Assembly: GCA_037039685.1 (NCBI GenBank)
Contig: JAWNGF010000006.1
Location: forward strand, 744,001 to 808,000
From: Ceratobasidium sp. AG-K
Taxonomy: Eukaryota > Basidiomycota > Agaricomycetes > Cantharellales > Ceratobasidiaceae
DNA: 64,000 nucleotides
Reading direction: 5' to 3'
This document shows, one piece after another, positions 11,167-28,389 of this stretch. Position 1 is the stretch's first letter; each line of letters begins with the position of its first letter. The position numbers were made by a program, and so were the translations under genes. The notes beneath the pieces were generated by a model that did not search any database, was not told where the DNA came from, and was given only the letters and a program-made list of their open reading frames with translations.

Positions 11167-11191
11167 CTAATAGAACAAAAGTGAGATACTA

Positions 11192-11222
11192 CATCAGCAA
11201 AAACCCACCCAGCTTAGGAGGA
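11192..11222 (+). repeat. Plavaka element left terminal inverted repeat
   Basis: Inverted partner of 27308-27338. The first 15 bases are identical, then four mismatches occur in the next 16. The outside flank is TA (11190-11191). Confidence 0.75.
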
Positions 11223-11988
11223 CTATAAAGTACTATAAATCCTCAAATCACCAGAATGCAAGTTCGATTTTAAAAGGTCTATAAAGATCTCTCAAATTAA
11301 CTTTCATTATTCAAGGTCCTTCAAATCAATCCCCCTGAATAGGAGAGCCTCAGATTATCAAGCATGATTCATATTGCTCTGATGTGTTGAAGTCTACTTC
11401 AAATCGCATTTGGCTGTTTTAAATGACTTCAAATCATTACTAGGGCAGTTAAAAACCGCTTCAAATCACCCCCAGGTGCTTCAAATCCACCTAACAGTGC
11501 TTTGGAGCACTCCAAACCAACCCCAGCCAGATTTAAATCGTAGTGCCAGATATATATCTCATGGGATTATAGGTACATGTTCAATGATTAGTGTGCTACG
11601 TGAATAGTAATGCCACCCCATACCAACATGTTTCAACAGCCATGATCACGATCCAATCAATATCAGTTCAACAGCCATTCATAGGCTCATTGGTTGAAAA
11701 GACAAAACTACAAGTGTACATGAACAACTAGCTACATACCCTTCAAAACGAAACACGAGTCCATAGGGATGAGACCATTAGAGCAGGAGAAGTGTCCAAA
11801 TGTGAGGGTTGGCAATTAGGGATGGGAAAACGGAAGTGGGGGGCAGACGACGCAACAGCATATGAGATAGAATCAACTAATCATAAGGAGTAAAAGTGAA
11901 AGTCACTTGAGAGCTCGTCGTACATTGGTACAGCTCTACTAGTCTAATCATAGACAAGGTTAGATTCGACTTAGAAGTGACTTAGTTA
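11223..11988. repeat. Left subterminal repeat region, no gene seen
   Basis: Between about 11240 and 11540 a short motif close to CTTCAAATC recurs about eight times in direct orientation, together with GTGCTTTGGAGCAC. The opposite end of the element (26990-27307) has the inverted form. This is typical of transposase binding sites in CACTA-related elements. From 11600 to 11988 I see only AT-rich sequence. Confidence 0.55.
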
Positions 11989-14793
11989 CTACAGACCTTC
12001 ACCTGGGAGACGAGTCACAGACACATACTCAGTCTCACTATCACATTCATACTGCTGCTCAGGACGAACGGGGACAGCATGAAGTGGTTCTTCAACATGA
12101 CTTCAAAGAACATGAGTAAACATGGGACAGATAAAAAGCTGTATGACTTACTAGCACGAGTCAAACATATGGTTAACCAAGTTACTGATGCAGATTGGGT
12201 TATTGTTGGGCTGGGTGGCCTCGTGAAGGTGGTCCAGATAGTACTGGAACCACTCTTTCTGGTTATTGGCATCCAACGGAGCCTTCTTGTAGGCATAGCC
12301 TGACTCGTACGTTGTGATCAGGAAGCGAATCTAAGATGGATTTCAATTTAAGATCACTCTATCAACAGACAAGCTTACCGTTGCGCAGTGAAACACTAGG
12401 GTTGGTAAAGGAATGGGCTTGAAGCGGGCAGCATGCTTGTACCCAACAGCCTTGTTTGGAACATCAAAATGCGTGTTCTTAATGCAGTTGGCCAGTATTG
12501 GATGATGGAAATCTCCTTTACCGGGTTGACAGTGCTAGTTCAAACAAGTCAGTAAATTCAACAAGCGTGTGAGTGGCACTGACCTTGGCATGGAAGGCAT
12601 TGTTGAGAAGATCCTTGACCTGTTGTTTGATTTCTTGTGGGCTAAACTTGAGGCCGAGTTTGTAGGCGCTCTCAACATAGCCACGCGCAACTGTCTTTGC
12701 AGAGTGACAAAGTTGCGTATAAACATGTTTAGACTAATACAACGGGTTGTGAGAGGACTGAGGAGCGAGCGAGGGGGAATCTGCTTACATAGACCACATA
12801 TTCCGCTAGAAGCGGGAGAGGTTTGATATCCTTGCGCAGTTGGTGATTGACGGCCACCCACTCATCAACAACAATCTGGTCGAAGGCAACTCCAGTTTGA
12901 TAGACGTTTCCATCGGGGTCAGGATCAGAATAAACGGGAGTGACATTGGCGTATGGGTTTTCAACCACAGCACGGAGGAGCAGTCGCTCAACAAGCGCAT
13001 CGACTAGTGGTCGGGCAATTGGGGCAAAATTGCCACGCCGAGCACGCTCTCGCATTGTGGCATAGAAGACAAGGGTTGCCTTGCCATTGTTGATGGCTAG
13101 GAAGTACTTGTTAGCAATGTAAACGCAGGCAGATTGCATTACATACATTCATCGTTGGCATCTTCACCGTCGCTCTGTTGAGGCCCCCTCCTGGCGCGCC
13201 CCTGCCCTCCTTTGGGATCTTTGCGTGGTTGGTTGCAATGTTGCTGTATGTCATCTTGAGGGCGACAGCTAGTCAAGCGGCCACATGGAGTAAGCTCGCA
13301 AGTAGTCTCACGAGAGGCAAGCTGTTGAGGAGGCTGGTCGCGATGCGGCTTCTGCTTTGATCCGGGATTACGCTCGGGACTCTTGGATGGAGGGCGGTTG
13401 AGTTCAGCACAACGCTGGCGTTCGCGTTCAAGTTTGCGTTCTTCTCGGCGGTGATGTTCTTTGTGTTTGCGGGCCTCCTGCTTCCGTTCCTCCTCAGCCT
13501 CAGCCTCGGCCTCTTCCTCATCAAGACGCTGACAAAGTTCAAGCGCTTCCTCATCCCGCCGGCAATGCTCAGCACGACGGTGTTCACGCTGCAACTCATG
13601 TTCCGCCTCGCGCCGACGGATGTCCGCGAGTGCCTCCTCGTCCCAACGCGCAACCTGAGCTTGGTACTCACGAGCAATTGCTTTGTGGTCAACATGGATT
13701 TCAGGCTCAAAGTCGCCTGCGGTGTCAGAATTCCTGCCATCGCCTTGGCCAGGCTTGGGGGGATGCTCATTGCGGGTGAGAGTAGGCTTGGACTGGGAGG
13801 AGGCATGTGTTGGACGAGGTGAGAGGAGTCTCAAGCCAGTAGTTGGTAGACGCTTGGCAAGGCTTATTGACGGGCTAGCAACCGGCGTCACAGTGCCGAG
13901 GCGGTAGGTGGAGCGAGACGTCGCCGGCAGCAAGGAAGTGGTGGAGCCGGATGGTTCTGTCAAGTGGTTAGTAAGTAAACAGATTTGTTGACAGAAGAGC
14001 CAACGTACGAGTCTTAAGGGATGGCTGGGGTTGCGGAGCACCAGGGACAATGGTCGTGGAATCTGTACGCTGGGCAAATTTGCCTTTGGCATTGGCTGTA
14101 GGCAAGGCATGAAGCTAATGAAACTTGGTAAGTATCCATGACAATTATCGGTAGACACGTTGGAACTTACCTGGGTCCCAGTTTTGTTTGTATATAGAGC
14201 TTCTAGCTGGCGCAGCGTGAGGTTTCTTGACGTGTAATTGCGACCAGTAAGGGGTCCGAGCATGCCAACCAACCAAGCTATACGATCTCCTTCCGTTGCA
14301 AGTTCATCATACTGCAAATCTAATGGGGTATCAACAACGAAGAGTCTATAAATTACAATTGGACACGTACCAAGCAGGGCCTCGTTGTGTGAGGCTTTGT
14401 CCTTGCCAGTCTTGGCTCGCTTTGCTGGTGGCTTGTCACCGGGGTTGTCCCTCTCATCCATGGGCGTGGGAGGGTCAGAGCCTTCGGGTGTCACCGACGA
14501 TAAACGATCTTGACCACGCTTCTGACCAGGTGACGCTATTGGGCAATAGCATCAAAAAGAAAAGCCAAAGAGGAGCAGCTAGAACGCACCTCCAGCAACA
14601 GCAACTGTAGTACTTGTTTGCGTAGCCTGTGCCGCTCGCGTTGGCAAGTACTGGTCGACTAAATTACGGATTAGCTGAAATAAAAAGAGGCAGGTGAATA
14701 CATACCATATGGGCGTGCCTTTGCAGGGACTGGTGCATTACAACGCGGCCAAGACGAGGAAGACCCACCATCCAAGTCGGACTGTGAGGACAT
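11989..14793 (-). CDS. Divergent cargo gene of the Plavaka element, coiled-coil plus DUF6532-like domain
   Basis: About ten exons on the - strand. The start is ATG at 14791-14793 (MSSQSDLDGGSSSSW). Early exons are 14706-14793, 14590-14658, 14371-14535, 14171-14319, 14009-14114 and about 13144-13956. They encode a disordered N-terminus, a block LTGRNYTSRNLTLRQLEALY, and about 100 residues of charged coiled coil (REAEHELQREHRRAEH...). The later exons (about 13120 down to 11989) encode an alpha-helical domain with GNFAPIARPLVDALVERLL, LRKDIKPLPLLAEYVV, GDFHHPILANCIK and KPIPLPTLVFHCATIRF. It resembles DUF6532-type fungal domains as I remember them. It ends with a TAG at 11989-11991. All junctions keep phase, so the gene may be intact. 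Its role in transposition is unknown. Confidence 0.6.
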
Positions 14794-15268
14794 GGCTAAA
14801 AGAAAGCACAGTGGGGAGAGATGGTGAAACTGGGGTGATATGAGTGAAGAAAACAATCAAAGGACGTTCAGGTATGATGAATGGTGTGAAAGAAGATGAT
14901 GAGCAACTCACTCTTGAAGTCCAGCCCTCTCTATACGCTGGAAAAGCCCTTTGCAACACTTCTCGAAGGCCGGTCCTTGACAGTTTTGATTAATTACTGT
15001 ATTGAGCTCCAATAATGGAGCTGTTTCGGGAGTTGTACCTGAGCTTCGTAAATGCAATGTGGGTGCAAATACATTGTCAAGAAAGGAAATTTACCTTTTT
15101 CGATGGGTGCATGCACGCCGAGCGCCCTGCTGCCTCGTTTTCTGGTGCCCAAGGCACCTGGTATGTCGTCATATTAAGGCTGCACGTCAGCAAGCATGAC
15201 GACACGCAGGCCGAGTGAAAATACCTAAGTCCCTCTACCTGAGACAAGTCGTCTCTCTCCTTTGCACC
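14794..15268. promoter_or_regulatory. Divergent intergenic region between cargo gene and transposase
   Basis: 475 bp separating two divergent starts inside the Plavaka element. No ORF of interest is present. It probably holds both promoters, but no clear TATA element was identified. Confidence 0.4.
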
Positions 15269-18200
15269 ATGTCTTGGGCCTGGCCACAGTTTCAATGTCA
15301 GTGGTGCAACCATCTTGTGCCTACTCGTTGCGGCCTGGAGAGTCACTACAGTCAGAAGCGTGATTGCGCAAAGAAACAGAACGATTACTATAATCTTGCC
15401 GTTTGCCGAGCTTGCTTCCCTTACTATATCCTCCCCCGCTTCCATTCGTCCTTAGCAAAGTCTCGCCCAAAGCATACTCAAAGTCCCTCGACAGAGCCGC
15501 CCGAGCCGGAACCAATGGATGTTGACACAGGTGTGTTGCATGAACCAGCCGAACCTGTTGTTCCAGTTGAGCCTGCCCATCCAATCGAGCCCAACAAAAT
15601 CCCGATCGACCAGGCGGTGTCGCCACAGGAGGATGATGATATGCAATCACCCGGCGCTGGTCCGAGTTCTTGTCACTCCACAGGCGAGACACGAATGCCC
15701 TCATTGGAGGACGCGGACGACAAGGACAAAGAGGATGAGGACGACAAAGATTGGTTGCCCAATTTATCCAACGAGGACAGCGAAGATGATGAGCTTGACA
15801 ATTACACCGACAGTGACAATGACGATAGCGATGGCCCATTTGTTCGCAATGTGCCACCCAAAGTGGACCCAACACCATGTCGTTCCCCACCGCATAAGTC
15901 AATCATCAAGGAGGCCCACCCCGACCCGACTGCTGGCGGTGTTTTGCGATGGGAAACCGCCAACGACCGCCCTAGACTAGTCTACGATACAATGTGGCAG
16001 GACAAGGCACTGTTTGAACATGCCGCATGGTTAGGGAACGTCCATGTGAGTAATGGCAACTGCAAACGTTACCTGCGCCAACATGTGAGTATATTCACCC
16101 CCGTGCGCAAATGAAGGCTTACCTGAATGCGTCCGCAGCATGAATCACTGCCGTGGCATTGCTGTAGTGACTTCCTACGTGATGTGGACGAGCTGCCACA
16201 TGGCCCGGACTGGCAACGGACCGTCATTGAGAGTCCTGAGGGCAAGTTAGTCGACTTTTACGTGCGAGACCCTATTAAGGTCATTCATCAGCTGATGTCT
16301 AACCGTGAGTTTGCAAACGATATGCGATACGCACCTGTGCAACAACGAACATCTGGGCCGAACGGGAAGCGCGTATTCAATGAGGTCTGGACTGGGAGCC
16401 GGTGGTGGCGTCTACAAGTACGAGTTCTATCGTCAACTTTGTGTGCAATAGGTGTAACTTACAACTAACAAAGACTGCCCTCGGTCGAGGACGTGGCGCG
16501 ACGATTGTGATGGTAATTGTGTCGACCGACAAAACACAACTGTCACTTGTGAGCGGCAGGCGCAAAGCCTGGCCAGTCTATCTAACTCTGGGGAACATCA
16601 GCAATCGTCTTTGGCGCCACCCTTCTGCCCATGCGCAGGTCCTTCTAGGGTACATACCTGTAACCGATACGTCCGGCCAAGCTGGCTGGCAATTCTATCA
16701 CTGGTGCATGAAACGCCTCTTGAAGCCGCTCAAGAAGGCCGGCGGGCAGGGCGTCGAAATGCTTTGTTCCGACGGCGGTGTTTGGCTTGTCTTTCCCCTC
16801 CTCGCAGCGTTCGTTGGCGATTGGCCCGAGCAATGTCTAGTGGCTTGTGTCCGCCAAAGTCGTTGCCCAATCTGTTACACCCCATCAAAAGGACGCGGGA
16901 AGACACGCTACTACCGCAAACGGGAGAAAGGAGAGTTCCTCAAAACATTGAATGGGGAGGCAAAGGGTAAAGCTAAGCGTTTGCGTACCCTGGGATATCG
17001 TCCCGTCCACCTGTTCTGGGAAGACTTGCCCTTCGCCGACCTCGCAACCACAATCACGCCCGATCTGTTACACCAAGTTAACAAAGGCGTCTTCCTTCAT
17101 CATCTCGTCAAATGGATGACAAACGAACTCACCACACCTGTTTTCGACGAGTGGCTCACCGGGCTCCCAAGAACGGCTCGTCTCCGACATTTCCGACGTG
17201 GGAAGTCGGTAATCAGCCAATGGACGGGGAGGGAATCAAAGGCGCTCGCGCAGGTGTTCATGGCGGTCGTAGCAGGATGCACAGAGGCCGACGCTGTCGC
17301 TGCATCACGTAGTCTAATGGATTTCATTTTCCTCGCGCACCAGTTGCAACTGACAGACGACGACTGGGCAGACATGGACGCCGCTCTCGCTCGATTCCAC
17401 GCGCTGAAGAACATTTTTGTTAAGCTCGGGGTCACGACTGGTCCGGACTTCGACAACATACCAAAGTTACACATGCTTGGCCACATAACCGACTCGATTC
17501 GAAGCCTTGGTACGACTGACAACTTCAACACGGAGGCGACCGAGCGCCTTCATATCGAGTACATGAAGGACGGCTGGCGAGCATCAAATAAAGTCAACAA
17601 GCTGCCCCAGATGGCCCGGTATCTTCAGCGACGGGAGGCCTGGGTATTACTCCGAACTCACCTTATTGAGATCGGTATCTTGCCTAGTCATGACAACCCC
17701 GACGACATGACTGATGTGACCAACGACAACGACGGCGATGAATCCACGTGTGATCAAGGTATTTTCGAGGTCATTCGGAACACTCAGGCTGGCAAGGTGC
17801 GAGACGGGGGCGACCTTAAGCGAAGAGTCCTTGGTGGGCGGCAATTAAACGAGCCAGAACAGAGCATCGAGATTCGGAAGGAGTGGGATGCCGACTTGGT
17901 CTGGATGGCTGACCCTTTGGTGTCGGCGTCGGGCAATAAGTGTCACGTGCTGACTCAGGGGTCCCAGTTGGTCCAATCATATCAGGCCTTGTGCCTCATC
18001 CAAGCCACGAAGGACTTCCTCGCCTTTCGTTCTGGTAACCGCTCCGGCCACCCACTCAACGAAGACCATGTCTTCTCTGTCTGGCACCGATGTCGACTCA
18101 AGCATGGGCGTCTCCCATTCCTCCCTGCCAAAGGCCCACATGTCGATGTCATCCGAGCGACCCCCAAAACCCAGGACGAGTACGGTCGCGTAACCCGACA

Positions 18201-18756
18201 CGGCGCGTTCGACACCGTCCTTTTTGTTTCCAACCCCAAAGCCCAGGGAATTCACCGTAAGTCTTTGTTCTCGTATTTTTTCTATTTTTTTTTCATTGGT
18301 TGCTCACCGTCGTAACTCAGGTTATACCGTCGGCCGGGTGCGGGTGATTTTCAAGTTACCCAAGCACCTGCGACATCACTATCGCAAGAAGTTAGTCTAC
18401 GTCGAGCACTTCCAATAGTTCTCTCGTGTGCCCGGCGATCCGCATGGCTTCTACTCAACCAGCCACTATATGTCTGGTCCGAATGTTCGACGCGTCTCGG
18501 TTATGCCGTTGTACAAGCTAAAGATGGCTTGCCACTTGACACCTCGGTATCATTCGCTCGAGCCCGACCATCCTATTTCTTCGCACGACAATCTTCTAGA
18601 GACATGCAAGATTTTCTATCTCAACCATTATAGTTCTCACTTTATCTTTGCCGTTTTCAACCACTGGCGCAAACGTCTCGGCCCCCAGGTGAGCCTTAAA
18701 CTACTCCCGGTCAATTGTCCCATGTTGACATTGTTTTGTAGGCACGTATCGCTTGA
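15269..18756 (+). pseudogene. Plavaka transposase (one internal stop)
   Basis: Five exons: 15269-16084, 16139-16417, 16474-18256, 18321-18688 and 18742-18756. All introns are 53-64 bp with matching phase, giving about 1086 codons. It starts MSWAWPQFQCQWCNHLV. An N-terminal C2H2-like finger (CQWCNHLVPTRCGLESHYS) is followed by an acidic linker (EDADDKDKEDEDDKDW). The catalytic part has DKTQLSLVSGRRKAWPVYLT, LLGYIPVTD, CSDGG, TPDLLHQVNKGVFLHHLVKW and GKSVISQWTGRESKAL, characteristic of Plavaka. The C-terminus (VPGDPHGFYSTS, FYLNHYSSH) is also conserved. An in-frame TAG at 18416-18418, just after LVYVEHFQ, truncates the protein about 95 residues early, within a conserved block. Everything else looks intact. 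Confidence 0.85.
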
Positions 18757-19111
18757 TACATGCTTTTTTTATGGCTGGTCACTCGCGTTCGGCCCGTTAA
18801 TACAACTTGTCTCCACTCTTGCTGGTATACACTCCAGTCCTGGCTTCATAACGGGCACCGCCTCTCGTGGCCGGACTTCTTGCAGGCTCACGCCCTTGTC
18901 GGCATTACAAGATGTTGCCTGCGTCTTATCCGTTGCCCGAGTCCCTCGAAACCACGTGTACCCTTCAATCATGCTGTATGTGTTTCCCTGGAACGTGCTA
19001 CGTACAACAGATATGTACTGACGCGCACCACGTAAGTAGAACAGGACGCCAAAATTGGGGCTTGGTGATGGCCTTGATAGCGGCGTAGTGAGACCGGCAG
19101 AACCCCTTGCG

Positions 19112-22100
19112 GCCTTGGCGAACTCGAACCATTCTACCTCTCAAGCCAACTACGAACGCTTACTTACCGCTGTTCACCCAAGGTATGTTGGATCTTTGAT
19201 CTTGCTGGCATTTGTTAACTGTCTGTCGTAAGCTTCTTCTTGATGGCTATGGGACAAGCCGAGATGGAGAGTGGACGGCACTAAGACCTAAGTGACCTCT
19301 TGAACCGCAACACACTTAAGCGTCTGTAGGCTCTTGAGGGTAGGGGTGGTTCTAAGTGTCACTCAGAGGGGATGTTTTGACGAGACAAAACAAGCTGGGG
19401 TTACCAGGCTTGTTGGTCCCCTATATATATTCAAGAAAAGGCCGAGTCATACAAGGCGCAGCCACATGAGTCATACAGTCTACCAGTCAGGAGTGTCCAA
19501 GTGAGTCATGCTGTATGAACAGACATGACTTGTACAAAGCACAGCCGCGTTACACAATGTAACAAGATAACCACAAGAAGGTGGCAACGCGGCGAACGGA
19601 AACGGAACACAATCACAAAAGAAGGGAACAGGCGGGCGAGACAACAGGCGAGTCCGATGGAGTGAGCTAGCTCATGACATTACTCCCCCCTAAGAGTCCG
19701 TTTGGGGGACCTGAACGGACCTACTGCACTGCACAGTCCTTTTCCTTCTTCAGCATATACTCCTCCAACCCCTCCTCCTCCTCCAAGGTCAGGTCGATGG
19801 GATTAAAAACGGTATTTCCCGGTTCGTCCGAGAACTTCTCCCATTCCTCCCAAGTCTCTTCCTTCGTCCAGTCCGCCTTGGACCACTCCAAAACCCTCTC
19901 CTGGGCCTCCACAAACTCCCCATCCCATTGTCGCACATCGGGCTCTGCCTCCTTCCATGCCGACACATCAGTCTCCTCCTTCCTCCACCAGTAGGGTTCC
20001 CATTCGATTTTTTCCTTCTGGTATCTGCCCCTCTCCATCCTCCAGTCGCTCAGGTCCTTCTCGTAGTTGGCGTCCCAGGCATCGTTCCATCTAGGTCGGA
20101 GCGTTGGTTGCCTTCCGTCGTAACCTGGTACCCACTCGCTCGAGTACGCTCCTTCTTGTCCCCATTCGACCACTCCAAGCATGTGGGTGGAGAGGAGGAT
20201 GACCTCCGAGACCTGGAAAGCAGCGCACCCTCGACAGACGAATATGTCCTTTCATTGGAGCTGCATGCGTGTCGGCCATTTTTTCCCAACCCACTGGAAT
20301 TCCCCCAGGTCTGAGGGGAGGATATTGTCTGAGGCCCTGAAGTGCATCCTTCCAGAGCCTTGTTGCGACCTCTTGAAGACGTAGAGGGCAGCTCCGGAGT
20401 CGAGGATCCTTGCCGTGGCAAAGGCAGGTCCTTCGAGGACGCGGGTGAGGTTGTTGGCAATGGTGGAACAGGTGACAGCAGGCATTGTAGAGGGCAAAAG
20501 AGATTTAAAGCGTAGAGTTGGTGGTGTTTCTTGGAGTAGTAGCAAGTTTTGCAAGTGACACTACCTGTTTCACTCCCCCTGCCTTTTATCTTCCTTGGAG
20601 CATAGTTAGATGGCGTGGGAGCTTCGGGGTGTCGGCGTAGAAGGTCCTTGATGATCTTTGAAAGGTGACCAAAATCTTCCGCCCTTTGTTCTGTGTCTTC
20701 TTCACTTCCATAACCCTTCCATCTGACCCTGTAAAAAAGGCCGTCCTTTGTCTCCTTCCAGTCCAAGATCTTCTCTACTTCGTATTCTTCTTCTCCTTCT
20801 TCTGTTATGATCGGCGGTGGCCGGGGTTGGTTGCGGTTGAATTCGGTATCTTCCTTGTAAGGGCTGAGCAAATCGATGTGGAAAACAGGGTGCACCCTCA
20901 TTGTTGCCGGCAGATCAAGCTCATAAGCGTGTGATCCTATCTGTCGCTTCACGACAAATGGCCCGTGCTTTTTGTTGTCCAGTTTCTTTGATGGTCTTTT
21001 TGTTTGAATGTTCTTTCCAAGTAGCCATACTAGATCTCCTTCTTGGTACTTGTCCTTTGGCTCTTCTTCTGGGAGCCTTTGGGTTTCCATAGATGCAATT
21101 GCTTCGTCGTGGATTTTACGCCATTTTCCTGTGATGTTGTTTGCTTCTGGAACCGCTGATTCTTCCGCTGAGATGTTCCACAGTGGTTCCCTCCCGTAGA
21201 CAATTTCGAAAGGGGAACCACCTGTTACCCAATGCTTCTGTAGATTATAGCTGAACTCTGCAATCGGTAATAAGTCCGCCCAATCATCCTGCCGGTAGTT
21301 GACGAACGATCATAGCCAGCCTTCCATCCATTGATTGATTCTCTCCGTTATTCCATCTGTTTGGGGGTGGTAGGCAGTACTGAATCCTGGGCTAGTTCCA
21401 ATTTTCTCATAAATGGCTTTCATAAGTTTGGAATTGAAAGTAGTCCCTCGGTCTGAGATCGTGCTCTTTGGGAAACCGTGCAGTTTCCAGACATTTGTGA
21501 TAAAAAGATTTGCAAGGTCACTTGCCGTGTGAGATTCTTTGCAGGGTATGAAGTGCGCCATTCTTGAGAATCGGTCCACCACTACTAAGATGCTATCTGA
21601 TCCTCTGGATTTTGGTAGCTTCACCACGAAGTCGAACGCTATGTCTTCCCACGGTCCTTTTGGAATCTCCAGAGGCTTGATTGGAACTATTGACTTCGAT
21701 CCCTTTGTCCGCTGGCAGGTCTCGCAGGATTCCACGTATCTGTTTATGCTTTGTTTCATCCCTGGCCAGAAGTACCTTCTTGATATTAGTTCCAGTGTTC
21801 TAGCCTGTCCTTGATGTCCTGCGATTTTTGAGTCGTGATGAACTCGCATGATGGCCAGTCTGGATTCCTTATCCTCTGGCACGTAGATCCTTCCTTTGAA
21901 CCATAATAGTCCCTCCTTGAAATCATAATCTTTTGCGCTGTGTTGTAGGGTTTTTGGTAACGTTTCCCTTGATTTGCAGATTTCTTTGATTTGTGCCAAT
22001 CCTTCATCTGTTTCCTGAGCCTCCTTGATAGTTCCTATGATGTTTGTGTCTACCTGTCCCATAAATCCTTTGAACCTTTCAACAGATATCATAACTTGTT

Positions 22101-25100
22101 CAGGCGTCGGGATATCTTCATGGTCTGACCGTCTTGATAACAGGTCCGGTTTTGATGACAGGATGCCGGGGCGATATATGATGTCAAAGTTATAGGAAGC
22201 AAGTAGTTGGTGCCATCTTGCGTGTTGACGGTTGAACGTTCTTGCTTCCTTCCAGAATTGTAGGTTCCTATGATCGGTGTAGATGGTGATGGGGTCCCTT
22301 GTTCCTTCAAGGTATAGCCTCCAATGTGTTAAAGATTCTATGATAGCCATAAGTTCTTTATCGTGGACGTCGTAGTTGAGTTGAGCCTCGTTGAAAGACT
22401 TTGAGAGAAAAGCAATAGGATGCAGGTAGCCATCGTCTTGCCTTTGCGACAAGATTGCTCCCATTGCTACTCCACTTGCGTCTGTTTCCAGGAAAAACGG
22501 TTTGTCAGGGTTTGGATGGCGTAGAGTGGGTTCCTTGCTGATTTCTGTTTTTAGGGCCACAAATGCTTCCTGCTGATCGTTTCCCCATTCCCATTTGTTT
22601 TCTTTTCTTGTCAAGGTTGTCAGGGGTTTTGCTAATCGGCTGAAATTCGGTACAAATCTTCGGTAAAAATTTGTGAATCCTAGGAATGCTTGAACTTGCT
22701 TGACCGTTCTTGGTTCCTTCCATTCCTTTATTGCCTTTACTTTTTCTTCCTCCATAGAGATGCCTGAATCGCTGATTCCAAGTCCAGTATATGTCAATTT
22801 GGTGATGAAGAATTCGCATTTTGGAAGCTTTGCAAAAAGATTTTCCTCCAGCAAGATCTTCAGTACTTTTCTGACATCCACGATATGTTGGCTTCTGTCC
22901 TTAGAGAAGACTAGGATGTCGTCAATGTATACTATGACACATACGTCAATAAGGTCATGGAAAATGTGATTCATATATCTTTGGAAGATGGCGGGAGCGT
23001 TCTTTAGTCCAAAAGGCATGACGACATATTTGAACAGTCCTTCTTTTGTTCTGAAAGCTGTCTTCCATTCGTCGCCTTCCCTAATTCTGATATTGTTGAA
23101 ACCCATGCGTAGATCGATCTTGGAGAAAATCTTTGCGTCCTTGATTTTATCCAGGAGGTCTTCCATTAGGGGCATTGGGAATCTGTTGTCCTTTGTAATG
23201 GCGTTTACTCCTCTGAGGTCTTGAACGAGTCGTAGTTGGCGAACTGCCCCTGGATTTTTTGGATCGATAGGTTTTTTGACAAAGAAACAAGGTGATGCAA
23301 TGGGGGATTTGCTGGGTCGAATCTTTCCCGCCGCAATTTCTTCATCCAGGTATTCTCTCAGTGCAATAGATTCTGCTGGAGAAAGTGGGATAGGTCTGGC
23401 TGGTCTTGGAAGTTCAGCCCCTTCCTTGAAGTCGATGGCGCAGTCGTATGGACGATGATCCGGGATTCTCTTGAATTTTTCTTCACTGAAGATGTCGGCA
23501 AATTCCTTGAGTTCCTTGGGCAGATCGTCTATTGAGGCTGTCCTTGCTTGAATGGGTTCTGTCCGCCATGATATGTGCTTCGTTTTCCAATCGATGACAG
23601 GGTTTGACTCCTCTAACCATTCCAATCCCAAGATAAGTTTAGTTTCTCCAGTAGGCATAGCAAAGAAGACTTGTTTGAAGGTTCTTCCTTCTACTTCTAG
23701 TTCCAGCTTAGCTTTGAAGCGTATTTGGTGGGAGAGTTCCTTCCCCTGGATACCAATTACTTTTCTAGGAGTGGAAAGTTCCATGAGTGGGATGTTGTTG
23801 GATCGAGCCCACGAGATGTCCAAGAAGTTCTTTGATGCTCCGGAATCGATGAGAGTAGGGATAGTTTCTGTGATTCTGGCAACGTTTGCGTAAACAATGG
23901 TAGATTCATTTGTCGCTCTAAAGTACATTGTTTCTGTTGCCGGTTTTTTGGTCTCTCCACACACAGTTAGAGGGAGACCCCTTCTTTTCCCGAGTCTTCT
24001 ACGATTGTTGCCTCCCTTCCTTTAACGCTAGGTTCCATTGTTATCCATTCCTTAGACGGACATTTGAATGAACGGTGTCCTTCTTGTCCGCACTTCAGGC
24101 AGCGATTGGTTGCTATCCTTGCTTTGTATACCTCGTCAGGCAGCCGCTTTGTAGAGGACTGTCCGCTAGTGGTTGGCTGGGCCGCCTTCTTCCCTGTCGA
24201 GGTCTTGATTTGTTGCAATTTCTGGTCAATAGAGATTGCAATTGAGATCCACCGGTCAAGGGAAAGTTCCCGTTCTGTCCCATCCTCATTGATCAGGGTC
24301 AGTTCAAAGCGAGCTAGTTCAGTCTTGACTTCTGACTTCAATCCTTCCTTGAATTGGTTGATCAGAGCTTCCTGTCCCCAATTTACGTCTACCAGGAGAT
24401 ATCGGAATTCCGAAGTGTAGTTTGCTACTGAGTTGTTCTGTTTGCATTTTCGGATGTCCGATTCGGCCTTAGCCTTTTTGTTGGGGTTGCTGAACTGTTC
24501 CATGAAGTGTGCCTTGAAACTTTCCCATGAGGCGAGGTTTTGGTTATTCTCCCTTTGGTTAAGCGATCGTAAGAGTACTTGTGCCCAGTGAGTGGTGGCC
24601 TTATTCTCGGATTTGAAGTTTGCTAGAGCTTCGCGTATTCTTTCTTCATTGGAAGTGTATTGATCGCCAAGACGTACAAAGTAACTTTCCATTTGTGTGA
24701 TGAACATTTCAGCACCTTCTCCTTTCTTTCCATCGAAGGCTTCTGGACGAGTCACTTTGGGACAACGAGGTCCGTTACCGATGTTTGGATTTTCAGTTAG
24801 TCGTTGAATTCTTAATTCCAATTCGTCGATCCTGGTAGACTCTGCTTCTGGGTGTGGTGGAGAATTTGATCGCCTGGAGGGAAGCCCGTGCAGGGAAGTT
24901 TCGTCCATTTCTTCTTGCATACTGTTGATAGCTTCCTGAACCTCCGTGATTTTGGTAGTGAAGGAGGTTCCTTCCTGTCGTAGGGATTCTAGTCCCTGTG
25001 TAACTGCCTCGTTCCATTCGAGTTGCCCTTGTCTGGTAGTGTTGAGTTCTTCGCGAATATTGTTCACTAGTCCTTGAGTGTTGGTTACTTCATTTCGAAG

Positions 25101-26683
25101 GCGGGTTACATCTTGGCCGACTAGAAAGGAATTGTGTTCGCCATTTCTTGCCGCATTCAGGATGTCTGTCAAGGTACCTTGTAGGGTGTTGATGGAGTCG
25201 TTAAAGATTTGTTGGTTGTTTGCTAGGATTTGTGTAGCTTGTTCTAGGCTGCTAAGCCTTCGATCTATAGTGACTCTCATTCCGTCTATAACCCTAATGG
25301 TGGCGTTGTGTCTTCCTTCTAGAAGGTCGTCCAAGTCGTCTAGATTACTGATTACAGTCCCATTGCTAGAGCTGGAACTTGAACTTGAGCTTCCTGGATC
25401 ACCGGTGCTTTGTTGTACCGGGCCCGATTGCCCGGAGTAACCTTGTGGGACATATGGTGGTGCCGGATTCACAGGCGTAACTGGCTGGGAAGCCACTGGA
25501 ATTGGTCCTGTGTTGGTGATAGTTCCTCCAATTTGGGGGACTGTGGGGACGTGTGGTGTAGGAGGAGGTCTAATCGGAACAAGCAACACGCCTCCATGTG
25601 CTTTGGGTTGGGGGGAAAAGAACTGTCTCCTAGTCCCTAGTGGCCATAAAGGACGTGATGGCCCTGGACTTCCAGTTGGAATGCGAATTACAGCTGGAGT
25701 GGGGTCATTTGTGAGATCTCCTGGTTCTCTATTCGTGATAGTGGGTTCTTCCTCTTGTACAGTTGTCATGTCAACGATGCCGAAAGCTCCCGGCATTGAT
25801 GTTTGGCTTTGGGAGCGTGATCGGACGGGAGCTCCCGCTTGATTTTGTGCAATATCTTGCTTGTTTAGTGATCCTGTGGGCCTTGCTGCCTGACTGGGTC
25901 CTCTTCTTGTTGATAATGTGGATGAGGGTCGTGACCCTCCATCTTCTTGAATAGACATATTTGTGTGTTGTTAAGCTTGTTTTGTAATGTCGTAAGCTTC
26001 TTCTTGATGGCTATGGGACAAGCCGCGATGGAGAGTGGACGGCACTAAGACCTAAGTGACCTCTTGAACTGCAACACACTTAAGCGTCTGTAGGCTCTTG
26101 AGGGTAGGGGTGGTTCTAAGTGTCACTCAGAGGGGATGTTTTGACGAGACAAAACAAGCTGGGGTTACCAGGCTTGTTGGTCCCCTATATATATTCAAGA
26201 AAAGGCCGAGTCATACAAGGCGCAGCCACATGAGTCATACAGTCTACCAGTCAGGAGTGTCCAAGTGAGTCATGCTGTATGAACAGACATGACTTGTACA
26301 AAGCACAGCCGCGTTACACAATGTAACAAGATAACCACAAGAAGGTGGCAACACGGCGAACGGAAACGGAACACAATCACAAAAGAAGGGAACAGGCGGG
26401 CGAGACAACAGGCGAGTCCGATGGAGTGAGCTAGCTCATGACACTGTCATTTCAGAATTGCCCGAGTGTAGTGCCAGTTGTATTTGACTCGACAGGCACT
26501 TTTTGTCCCTCTCGCACATTTTCAAGGTTTCCGACACCCAGGTCCGGTCCAAACTCAACCCCCGTCAACATGTTGTTTGGCGGTGTCCGTCACATTGCCA
26601 TCGGTCGTAGTCTCGCAACTCCGCGTGATTCGTTTCATACATTGCACCCGTATTTTGTCGGCCCTACGACCGGCGTGATTTGA
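19112..26683 (+). CDS. Possible third Plavaka-borne gene, interrupted in an intron by Gypsy-2
   Basis: Weakly supported. An exon ending at 19182 (reading ELEPFYLSSQLRTLTY...SPK) and an exon 26456-26683 (NCPSVVPVVFDSTGTF...RHIAIGRSLATPRDSF, stop TGA) can be joined in phase. The joining intron runs 19183-19223 plus 26449-26455 once Gypsy-2 and one target copy are removed. That gives 48 bp with GTATGT donor, TTAAC branch-like site and TTTCAG acceptor. The 5' end of the gene was not found; 18757-19111 shows no convincing exon. I recognise no domain. Confidence 0.3.
19224..19679 (-). repeat. Gypsy-2 LTR (3' LTR in element orientation)
   Basis: 456-bp direct repeat of 25988-26443 with TG...CA ends, a TATATATA box and repeated GAGTCAT motifs. 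Confidence 0.95.
19680..19697 (-). other. Gypsy-2 polypurine tract
   Basis: On the - strand the purine run AGGGGGGAG followed by TAA abuts the 3' LTR. Confidence 0.65.
19721..20485 (-). pseudogene. Gypsy-2 ORF3, tryptophan-rich, one internal stop
   Basis: A frame starting with ATG at 20483-20485 (MPAVTCSTIANNL), -1 relative to pol, about 254 codons, with one TGA at 20252-20254. Without that stop it is open to TAG at 19721. The C-terminal part is strongly acidic and Trp-rich (WNDAWDANYEKDLSDW, EWEPYWWRKEE, ETWEEWEKF). FNPIDLTLEEEE recalls FNTIDWSKG of Gypsy-1 ORF3. There is no transmembrane segment. The shared position, frame and MPA start in two distinct elements argue for a real third gene. 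Confidence 0.5.
20050..23964 (-). pseudogene. pol: Gypsy-2 pol polyprotein (PR-RT-RNase H-IN-chromodomain), one internal stop
   Basis: Frame -1 relative to gag. Protease LIDSGASKNFLD; RT with FGLKNAPAIFQR and intact YIDDILVFSKD; RNase H FLETDASGVAMGAILSQ; integrase finger HHDSKIAGHQGQ...CETCQR. The integrase catalytic residues are present in FDFVVKLP, SDRGTTF and TDGITERINQ. A TGA at 21310-21312 follows MEGWL where Arg is expected. The same frame resumes with NYRQDDWADLLPIAEF, the GPFVVKRQIGSHAYELDLP block and a chromodomain (YEVEKILDW...YRVRWKGYG). Except for the stop, every catalytic motif I can see is intact. The tail beyond about 20560 is probably only a shadow of ORF3. Confidence 0.9.
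23967..25958 (-). CDS. gag: Gypsy-2 gag polyprotein
   Basis: 663-codon ATG-initiated frame (MSIQEDGGSRPSS), starting about 29 nt inside the 5' LTR. Disordered Pro/Ser-rich N-terminus, long coiled-coil middle (LDDLLEGRHNATIRVIDG...), capsid-like region (CPKVTRPEAFDGKKGEGAEM, WESFKAHFMEQFSNP) and one CCHC knuckle CLKCGQEGHRSFKC. It stops with TAA at 23967-23969. The pol frame overlaps this end, so pol expression would need a -1 shift. Confidence 0.9.
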   Translation of the reverse strand: MSIQEDGGSRPSSTLSTRRGPSQAARPTGSLNKQDIAQNQAGAPVRSRSQSQTSMPGAFGIVDMTTVQEEEPTITNREPGDLTNDPTPAVIRIPTGSPGPSRPLWPLGTRRQFFSPQPKAHGGVLLVPIRPPPTPHVPTVPQIGGTITNTGPIPVASQPVTPVNPAPPYVPQGYSGQSGPVQQSTGDPGSSSSSSSSSNGTVISNLDDLDDLLEGRHNATIRVIDGMRVTIDRRLSSLEQATQILANNQQIFNDSINTLQGTLTDILNAARNGEHNSFLVGQDVTRLRNEVTNTQGLVNNIREELNTTRQGQLEWNEAVTQGLESLRQEGTSFTTKITEVQEAINSMQEEMDETSLHGLPSRRSNSPPHPEAESTRIDELELRIQRLTENPNIGNGPRCPKVTRPEAFDGKKGEGAEMFITQMESYFVRLGDQYTSNEERIREALANFKSENKATTHWAQVLLRSLNQRENNQNLASWESFKAHFMEQFSNPNKKAKAESDIRKCKQNNSVANYTSEFRYLLVDVNWGQEALINQFKEGLKSEVKTELARFELTLINEDGTERELSLDRWISIAISIDQKLQQIKTSTGKKAAQPTTSGQSSTKRLPDEVYKARIATNRCLKCGQEGHRSFKCPSKEWITMEPSVKGREATIVEDSGKEGVSL
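25964..25987 (-). other. Gypsy-2 candidate primer-binding region
   Basis: Directly after the 5' LTR on the - strand the sequence is TTACAAAACAAGCTTAACA, close to the same site of Gypsy-1. Confidence 0.4.
25988..26443 (-). repeat. Gypsy-2 LTR (5' LTR in element orientation)
   Basis: Partner of 19224-19679, 456 bp, followed by the CTGTC duplication. Confidence 0.95.
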
Positions 26684-27307
26684 ACGTGGTATTTAGTATG
26701 GTGGACATTGTCATAGCGGTCGATTTGGTGCTGTTTGATCGGCTGGCGGGGATCTGGACTTGAAATCACACTGCATTATTACTCCACTAGACTGTTCAGA
26801 TGTATATACACGCTGTAAAGGAAAAAAGTTTTCGGGTGAAACGGCAACCTGCAACAAAAATCAGTTATCTGAGTTGTTGGCGCTTAACTCGCATCCATGT
26901 CACTCCTCCACTGCCCGACAACAGGAAGGAGGGTATGAGCGTGCTGCGGTAAAAACACCTGGGGTCGACTTGAAGTTCAAACAGATTTACATGTGCCCTT
27001 CAAGGACCAAGTACTTGATAATGTGGGCATTGAATTCATAATTTTGACCATGATTCGGAGTGATTTCGAGTGCTCCAAAGCGCTCGGAATCCTGTTCAAG
27101 GTGCTTTGGAGCAGCGCGGGCGCAATTTGGAGCTATTTCAAAATGGTCAAGTTATTTGAATGTTAGGCCAACTTTCAAACTACTCAACGTACTGTGTAAT
27201 TATTTGGAGGACGCGAAAGCCCTTCGTATAACGAGCTTCAACTCAAAGTACTTTGATAATACATGTCATATTTGTAGTCCTAATCTTGAAAGTCCGATTA
27301 TTTGGAC
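26684..27307. repeat. Right subterminal region of the Plavaka element
   Basis: No gene seen. From about 26990 on, motifs of the type TATTTGGAG, TATTTGAAT and GATTTCGAG recur, plus GGTGCTTTGGAGCA. These are the inverted form of the left-end array. Confidence 0.5.
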
Positions 27308-27338
27308 TCCTCCTGAGGTTGGCGGGTTTTTGCTGATG
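27308..27338 (-). repeat. Plavaka element right terminal inverted repeat
   Basis: Inverted partner of 11192-11222 (27 of 31 bases). The outside flank is TA (27339-27340). Confidence 0.75.
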
Positions 27339-27365
27339 TATTTACATTTCCCTGAATATACTTAC

Positions 27366-28389
27366 CGCCCTCCTCCTTTCCTTTGATTTATTCCGTTCCT
27401 TGTTGAGCTTCTGCTTCCTCAGGCGTTCCCCTGTTGGGTCAGTGTTCTGTGCAACATTGGCTCGGGCATTGGCCCACGTTGAATGCAACAGCTTGTTGAT
27501 CGAGAGGTCCGAGAGGTCATTCTCAGTAATATCCCCCCGGCAAAGCAGCTCCTTGGTCTGTAAGTGACAGTGTGTTAGAGAACTCCTCTACAAAAGGCCC
27601 AAAATCTCGTTCGTCTCGTGGGGTCTCGGGATTCAGGGGAGGTGCTCGTCAGGCTCCCAAGCGCTCGTGATGTCTTGTGAGCCCTCGCGAGATAAGCGCG
27701 CATTTCGCTCTTGATTGCTCGCGAGCCCTCAGGAGCGCTTCGGAGCCGCCACGAGCTCGACGAGCACCTCCCATTGATCCCGAGACCACACGAGATTCTT
27801 GGGTATTGCTGACGTCGGGCTGATCACCAACTTATAGTACTTGCCATTCTATCATTCCGGGCCTCAGTACGAAGCCTTTCAAGGTACACCTGATTGTCCC
27901 GATGATTAAAGTTTGACCAGTTGAACACCCAGTAGGACTCGTCGTCGTCGTCAAGAGCTGGGTTGTCGCTGGTTCCCATCGTGCCAGGCTGCCGATCCGA
28001 ACCAATATCGGACAGTTTACTGGCCCAAGTCCCTCTTTCAAGATACGTGTGAGGATTTGCTAGGCTTGGGTGAGCAAACATCCGAGTCCACAAAACACTC
28101 GACTGACCTGCAATGGTGCGCATTTATATCCATTTTGTGATCGAGCAACACCAGTCGGTGCTACCACCAGTTGGTTCAAGTTCAGCTGCGATGCAACCTG
28201 GGTGGCCAGCAGATTAACATCCAGAGAGCCAGGAACACCTCCTGGCTGTCCCAGTAGATGCCCAGCTACCTGGGATGCAAGCGAGGCCACATCTGCAGCC
28301 GAGAACACCAAGGGAGGAAGCGGAGGGTCTGGTAGGGGATTGTCAACAGCGAAGGCCTGCAGCGGGATGGGGGCTGAGTCGAAAGACAT
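27366..28389 (-). pseudogene. Split accessory gene of the Tnp2 element, 5' exons
   Basis: Three exons on the - strand: 28389-28152 (ATG start, MSFDSAPIPLQAFAV, Ala/Val/Leu-rich), 28107-27845 (QSSVLWTRMFAHPSLANP, acidic ALDDDDESYWVFNWSNF) and 27557-27366 (TKELLCRGDITENDLSDL...RLRKQKLNKERNKSKERRRA). Intron 1 is 44 bp. Intron 2 (27558-27844) is 287 bp, uses a GC donor (GCAAGT) and contains the foldback repeat. Intron 3 starts GTAAGT at 27365 and is now filled by the 16-kb Plavaka insertion; the next exon is at 11166. All phases agree. No known domain is recognised. Convergence with the Tnp2 transposase suggests it is the second gene of that element (inference). Confidence 0.6.
27598..27803. mobile_element. 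Foldback/MITE-like inverted repeat in an intron
   Basis: About 206 bp whose two halves are imperfect inverted copies. The left arm begins CCCAAAATCTCGT and has GGTCTCGGGAT and GGAGGTGCTCGTC. The right arm read backwards begins CCCAAGAATCTCGT with the same blocks. The arms meet near GCGCGC at about 27697. No target duplication is obvious. Confidence 0.6.

Follow-up and report, generated by a model that had tools for sequence, protein, structure and literature searches.

The question raised by this locus is whether the gene that stands divergently beside a Plavaka transposase is a passenger of the transposon or a working part of it. The window, a stretch of 64,000 nucleotides of Ceratobasidium sp. 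AG-K (C6:744001-808000; positions without a contig name are counted from its first letter), contains at 11192-27338 a complete PlavakaB cut-and-paste transposon, bounded by CATCAG...CTGATG termini and flanked by a duplication of 2 bp of its target. The element encodes the transposase and, on the opposite strand, a partner protein with a C-terminal DUF6532 domain. The two genes move together and stay together in this genome (53.6 Mb in 17 contigs, the source of all linkage data given here), forming a recurrent, co-inherited pair, and a two-gene core composed of Plavaka transposase and divergent DUF6532 gene is close to certain for it. The reading that we favour, in which this core is combined with a role of the DUF6532 protein resembling that of TNPA in the En/Spm transposon, is given a probability of roughly 0.55.

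The two genes and their linkage

The divergent multi-exon gene proposed at 11989-14793 by the original prediction, made from the letters of the window, is borne out by an 11-exon model of 763 codons that carries no internal stop in the window copy. Its product matches PF20149 (DUF6532) with 73.8 bits against a curated cut-off of 24 (E 2.3e-20), and the spliced partners at three other Plavaka loci score 112.2, 77.7 and 107 bits. Two exons of the transposase match PF18759, the domain of Plavaka transposases (3.8e-68 and 1.8e-19). The features of the two genes are as follows.

11989..14793, minus strand: partner gene, hand exon model with 11 exons and 763 amino acids, a basic/acidic charged middle and a C-terminal DUF6532 domain (amino acids 560-703)
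14794..15268, no strand: region of 475 bp between the divergent start codons of the gene models, presumed to be a shared promoter region
15269..18690, plus strand: Plavaka transposase, approximate model with several exons, a zinc-finger-like N-terminus (by eye), an acidic linker and a PF18759 core
16522..17553, plus strand: catalytic core of the transposase, read from the translation
16528, plus strand: D of STDKTQ, putative first residue of the DDE triad
16771, plus strand: D of CSDGG, putative second residue of the triad
16864, plus strand: C(2)C motif CPIC, from the translation
about 17470, plus strand: H(3)H motif HMLGH, from the translation
17533 or 17542, plus strand: E of TEATERLH, candidate last residue of the triad

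The CPIC and HMLGH motifs stand between the second D and the last E, the position that the text of PMC12730594 gives for the C(2)C and H(3-4)H motifs of PlavakaB.

A genome-wide exon-by-exon profile search gave 91 matches to PF18759, which form 47 clusters, and 35 matches to PF20149, which form 32. For 29 of the 32 DUF6532 clusters a Plavaka cluster stands no more than 15 kb away, across gaps of 2.5-11.9 kb and divergent in all 29 cases; 2,000 trials of random placement linked 0.85 clusters on average and 5 at most. A Plavaka element nested in a copy on C11, missed by the family search, has a DUF6532 partner after splicing (E 1.4e-21), and this partner used as a query retrieved its own locus and three further DUF6532 loci. 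Two of these three, at C8:84868-85728 and C8:132026-132677, are divergent from Plavaka clusters that had earlier seemed partnerless, and the third, C3:2647806-2656358, has no Plavaka near. In total 32 of 36 DUF6532 loci are linked to Plavaka, all 32 divergently, and 32 of the 47 Plavaka clusters are partnered; at a 33rd (C4:2324516) there is a DNA-level match to the 5' part of a partner gene. In the corresponding control with KDZ transposases, counted by hand, one of ten clusters has a DUF6532 gene within 15 kb, and Plavaka is present at that locus too. A KDZ transposase at C9:2131553-2132139 stands about 7 kb from a Plavaka/DUF6532 pair. TET/JBP genes were rejected as cargo: the genome has six matches, one of them over the cut-off, and a comparison by hand placed all six more than 15 kb from any Plavaka or DUF6532 locus.

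Co-inheritance was measured on 17 pairs, namely 13 representatives and the pairs of the window, C3, C8 and C9, using 304 columns of the transposase domain and 84 columns of hand-spliced DUF6532. The two distance matrices are correlated with a Mantel r of 0.86, reached in 0 of 20,000 permutations, and the eight deep representatives give an r of 0.65 (3 of 20,000). Among 12 transposase clades with support of at least 0.7, nine recur among the 11 supported DUF6532 clades; the group of C3, C8 and C7 is placed differently in the two trees. Once poorly aligned stretches had been removed, the comparison of the C3 and C8 elements gave a synonymous divergence (dS) of 0.91 with a nonsynonymous to synonymous ratio (omega) of 0.23 for the partner (672 of 819 aligned codons), and a dS of 0.87 with an omega of 0.14 for the transposase (916 of 967). 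The partner is thus the less conserved of the two, and both genes are under purifying selection where this is measurable. Matched dS values and agreeing trees are not expected of a passenger gene.

These data bear directly on the explanation that the DUF6532 gene is captured host cargo that hitch-hikes with the element. Gene capture does occur in these elements, as illustrated by a piece of an ATPase gene in a second family (family 2, below), and four DUF6532 loci have no Plavaka nearby. In contrast, the trees of the two genes match among lineages with only 34-41% transposase identity in the alignments compared, the divergent layout is constant, and the dS of the partner matches that of the transposase, whereas the captured ATPase piece differs from both (dS 0.50 between the C3 and C8 elements, below the transposition genes). 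Cargo is therefore largely refuted for this genome and very improbable.

Returning to the two-gene core, several observations count against so close a partnership. The four unlinked DUF6532 loci of the 36 are C1:526417, C13:1327676, C14:985602 and C3:2647806-2656358 (the last in two pieces, counted as one), either remnants or domesticated genes. No partner was detected at 14 of the 47 Plavaka clusters. Nine of these give no more than a partial match to the Plavaka profile, of at most 54 bits (C1:315335-316016 is the example that was read) and may belong to another Plavaka-like lineage, perhaps PlavakaA; the other five are C1:851519, C13:147825, C7:1194577, C8:166654 and C8:2391151. Finally, three of the 12 supported transposase clades are missing from the DUF6532 tree, which is built on 84 columns.

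Ends, arrays and copies of the element

The element is delimited by the following features, which include one insertion foreign to Plavaka.

11190..11191, no strand: left target site duplication TA, exact over 2 bp; the uninterrupted site has a single TA
11192..11229, plus strand: left terminal inverted repeat (TIR), CATCAGCAAAAACCC...
11241..11519, mostly plus strand: left subterminal array of CTTCAAATC / CTCCAAATC-like motifs, with 7 CTCCAAATC matches in the left 450 bp
19219..26448, minus strand: nested Ty3/gypsy long terminal repeat (LTR) retrotransposon with its 5-bp duplication CTGTC
27052..27209, mostly minus strand: right subterminal array of CTCCAAATC-like motifs, with 6 matches in the right 450 bp
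27301..27338, minus strand: right TIR, ...GGGTTTTTGCTGATG
27339..27340, no strand: right target site duplication TA, pairing with 11190-11191

The inverted termini, taken with the duplication (11190-11229 and 27301-27340), are 83% complementary over 40 nt. The joined flanks of the element are 99% identical over 511 nt to C6:130174-130684, an uninterrupted target with one TA, so that the TA flanks represent a true 2-bp duplication and the complete unit with defined inverted ends that had been predicted is confirmed. CATCAGCAAAAACCC and GGGTTTTTGCTGATG display the 5'-CATCA..TGATG-3' form, and the duplication one of the two lengths (2 or 3 bp), that PMC12730594 gives in its text for PlavakaB. The host DNA around the insertion is itself duplicated, its second copy lying 0.6 Mb away on the same contig in the opposite orientation with 99% identity. 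Just beyond the right end of the element, at 27614-27795, there is a 43-nt inverted repeat, 86% complementary, with a spacer of 96 nt.

The search for further copies by their TIR, suggested at the outset, was productive. The pattern CATCAGCAAAAACCC with at most one mismatch occurs at 62 places in the genome and its reversed control at 2, and 16 pairs of these matches are spaced 246-247 bp apart, forming miniature inverted-repeat transposable elements (MITEs). All 13 MITEs examined among these 16 are flanked by exact 2-bp duplications that vary in sequence; two of the 13 have identical flanks and hence probably come from one insertion. This variation rules out TA as a specific insertion target, and what stands of the predicted TA flanks is the duplication. 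In the given orientation, five of the 13 reach only 63-65% identity with one reference MITE; two have a different length. Among nine long TIR pairs the 2-bp duplication is present in five and absent from four. A 19.7-kb pair at C3:2147206-2166874 was rejected as an element copy; it has no DNA in common with the window element, no tblastn match to partner or transposase and no duplication, and is probably a chance pairing.

Subterminal arrays are present at both ends. With at most one mismatch allowed, the left 450 bp contain 7 occurrences of CTCCAAATC (6 on the plus strand) and the right 450 bp contain 6 (5 on the minus strand), where shuffled sequences lead to expectations of 0.17 and 0.15. 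The predicted inversion of the arrays thus holds for this looser motif, but exact CTTCAAATC is dense on the left only (6 left, 2 right).

Two sister copies, C15:1196035-1204956 (8,922 bp) and C11:1246527-1266665, are 97-99% identical to the window element and retain both genes; the exon-intron borders of the partner are preserved in all three copies. In the C15 copy the partner has two stops and the transposase one; the C11 copy shows none in the parts read, and its partner is without internal stop. The window transposase is interrupted in its last part by an in-frame TAG at 18416-18418, where both sisters have a sense codon. Neither sister contains 19224-26443, the body of the Ty3 element, which is bounded by LTRs at 19224-19679 and 25988-26443 (3 differences in 456) and encodes gag-pol domains. 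The third gene of the original prediction, and with it the idea of a three-gene system, falls away, as it belongs to this retrotransposon.

Family 2 is represented by an element of 10,948 bp on C3 with the duplication GG and one of 10,585 bp on C8 with the duplication GA. They end in CATCAGAGAAAACC and CATCAGGAAAAA, their genes share about 75% DNA identity, and the C3 insertion has uninterrupted counterparts at C12:50433-50782 and C1:9824944-9825293. In place of CTCCAAATC, their arrays are composed of GTAGATCTAC-like motifs, found with at most two mismatches 4-5 times on the left and 2-3 times on the right (expected 0.2-0.3). Thus the two families compared carry repeated, inverted, family-specific subterminal motifs that differ from one to the other. 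A further CATCAGGAAAAACC end lies 1.9 kb past the transposase side of the pair at C6:2767775, which extends such ends beyond the two families. The Plavaka nested in the C11 copy is different again, at about C11:1255391-1266601, with CGTCAGTAAAAA ends and a 3-bp TCT duplication, both read by eye, and with its own divergent DUF6532 gene.

The ATPase piece of family 2 resembles a P-type Ca2+-ATPase gene (PF00689, 4e-45) and lies at about 8477-11237 of C3:3930501-3942400 and also in the C8 element. Neither element shows the DKTG phosphorylation motif in its three forward frames. A copy of the piece with 89% identity is located at C11:969758-971864. Its lower dS suggests that the piece may have been captured or exchanged later.

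The DUF6532 gene lies inside the same TIRs as the transposase in the window, C15 and C11 copies and in both family 2 elements. The recurrence of the partner between shared termini, on which the prediction had been staked, is therefore observed in sister copies, and the partner gene recurs at deeply diverged Plavaka loci; the partner is not a single-copy host gene, and the TIR is common to other copies.

Role of the DUF6532 protein

Since the DUF6532 gene is nearly always found beside the transposase and co-evolves with it, it looks like a working part of the transposition machinery. PMC2613891 describes how in En/Spm the protein TNPA binds family-specific subterminal repeats and how TNPA and TNPD are both required. 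By analogy, as the termini of Plavaka are conserved and the arrays change between families, the DUF6532 protein may serve the ends. It would be the second transposition protein of the element, binding the subterminal arrays of its own family at both ends, holding the ends together and recruiting the transposase, which would cut at the CATCAG termini and insert with a 2-bp stagger. Any MITE retaining the TIR and array-like motifs would be mobilised in trans. Taken by itself, this TNPA-like mechanism is an evenly balanced proposition. To be set against it is that end-binding is something we infer from the analogy. The Pfam scan of the partner returned no model besides DUF6532, with neither an enzyme domain nor Myb/SANT; no relative of DUF6532 was found by sequence in the PDB; and structure models of the partner are weak (mean predicted local distance difference test scores of 39 and 54), with no usable fold match. 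In addition, a count of 7-mers in the element nested on C11 gave no comparable array, the best motif having 4 occurrences.

The N-terminus of the transposase leads to another assignment of tasks, in which its zinc-finger-like region would bind the arrays and the DUF6532 protein would act through protein contact as a regulator, target-site selector or nuclear-import partner. A weak C2H2 match is found at the N-terminus of the C3 transposase, the N-terminus of the window transposase looks similar by eye, and the partner might dimerise through its charged, coiled-coil-like region. The C3 match (18 bits) is below the cut-off of 25.2, however, and the profile scan found no C2H2 match in the window protein, so that this assignment appears improbable.

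Decay of the copies bears on a different role. When window 11192-19223 is compared with the C15 and C11 copies, the private differences of the three are almost purely C-to-T at CpG: 222 of the 228 private C-to-T changes are at CpG, which accounts for 26% of C sites; CpA decay of the repeat-induced point mutation type is ruled out. Such a pattern is expected of cytosine methylation followed by deamination, and the near-exclusive decay at CpG makes the elements seem methylated. The DUF6532 protein might therefore be an anti-silencing factor that binds the motifs of its element and keeps it unmethylated or expressed. VANC acts as an anti-silencing factor for VANDAL elements, and family-specific arrays would suit such a factor too. 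TET/JBP proteins, whose genes are carried by some PlavakaB families of other fungi, have been proposed to counter silencing in other fungal transposons (PMC12730594, main text). Nevertheless, the copies have decayed despite the partner, the Pfam scan revealed no enzyme domain in it, and co-inheritance across nearly every sampled lineage fits an essential part better than an accessory one. Anti-silencing is accordingly judged unlikely, if a little less so than action through protein contact alone.

The TNPA-like reading extends to a wider proposal, which we hold tentatively and somewhat below even odds: that DUF6532 is the second core protein of Plavaka throughout the Agaricomycetes, an end-binding factor of TNPA type that has co-diversified with the subterminal motif of its own family, and that most "host" DUF6532 genes are transposon genes. 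Should the pairing also be found in further species, many DUF6532 genes now attributed to the host would have to be reclassified as transposon genes. DUF6532, a domain of unexplained function, gains a home and a testable job, and Plavaka changes from a transposase label to a unit of two genes that includes ends, arrays, 2-bp duplications and MITEs.

Comparison with known systems

Plavaka had been taken to be known from its transposase alone, but its termini are described in PMC12730594 and PMC8290104, so the part of that claim that stands concerns the partner. A DUF6532 partner of Plavaka was not found in the accessible text of the literature searched, which included PMC12730594, PMC8290104, PMC9674265 and PMC11075540; Iyer et al. 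2014, Repbase reports and supplements fell outside this search, and a prior description is possible. The PlavakaB account of PMC12730594 (Kojima 2025) names no DUF6532 or second core protein in its main text, supplements aside. PMC8955403, the one paper of the literature searched in which DUF6532 and PF20149 appear, lists both PF18759 and PF20149 among the extra domains of two Ganoderma species, with no link drawn between them.

Homologues of the DUF6532 protein come from Ceratobasidium species, which supply the nearest named relatives, and from one Mycena; of the 13 distinct proteins, two have no precomputed domain. Like the partner, they have a long N-terminal part that looks disordered, followed by DUF6532 in the C-terminal half, and they differ in being annotated as hypothetical proteins. 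Unlike the PlavakaB elements that carry TET/JBP genes, the loci here have none. Nuwa, a Harbinger-like element, belongs to another transposase superfamily, and the DUF6532 protein has no Myb/SANT match.

The closest comparison is with En/Spm and other CACTA elements. The elements described here differ from En/Spm in their CATCAG termini and 2-bp duplication, where En/Spm has CACTA termini (CAC..GTG) and 3 bp, and in their two divergent genes, where En/Spm has overlapping, alternatively spliced transcripts. The Pfam scan of the partner, a comparison that left out TNPA itself, gave no sequence link of DUF6532 to TNPA. The two systems are alike in having two element proteins, a multi-exon partner and a transposase of related superfamily, and similarly in their conserved termini, family-specific subterminal repeats and non-autonomous derivatives moved in trans. 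Plavaka and DUF6532 may provide a fungal counterpart of TNPA and TNPD, with many families in a single genome among which to compare arrays and partner proteins.

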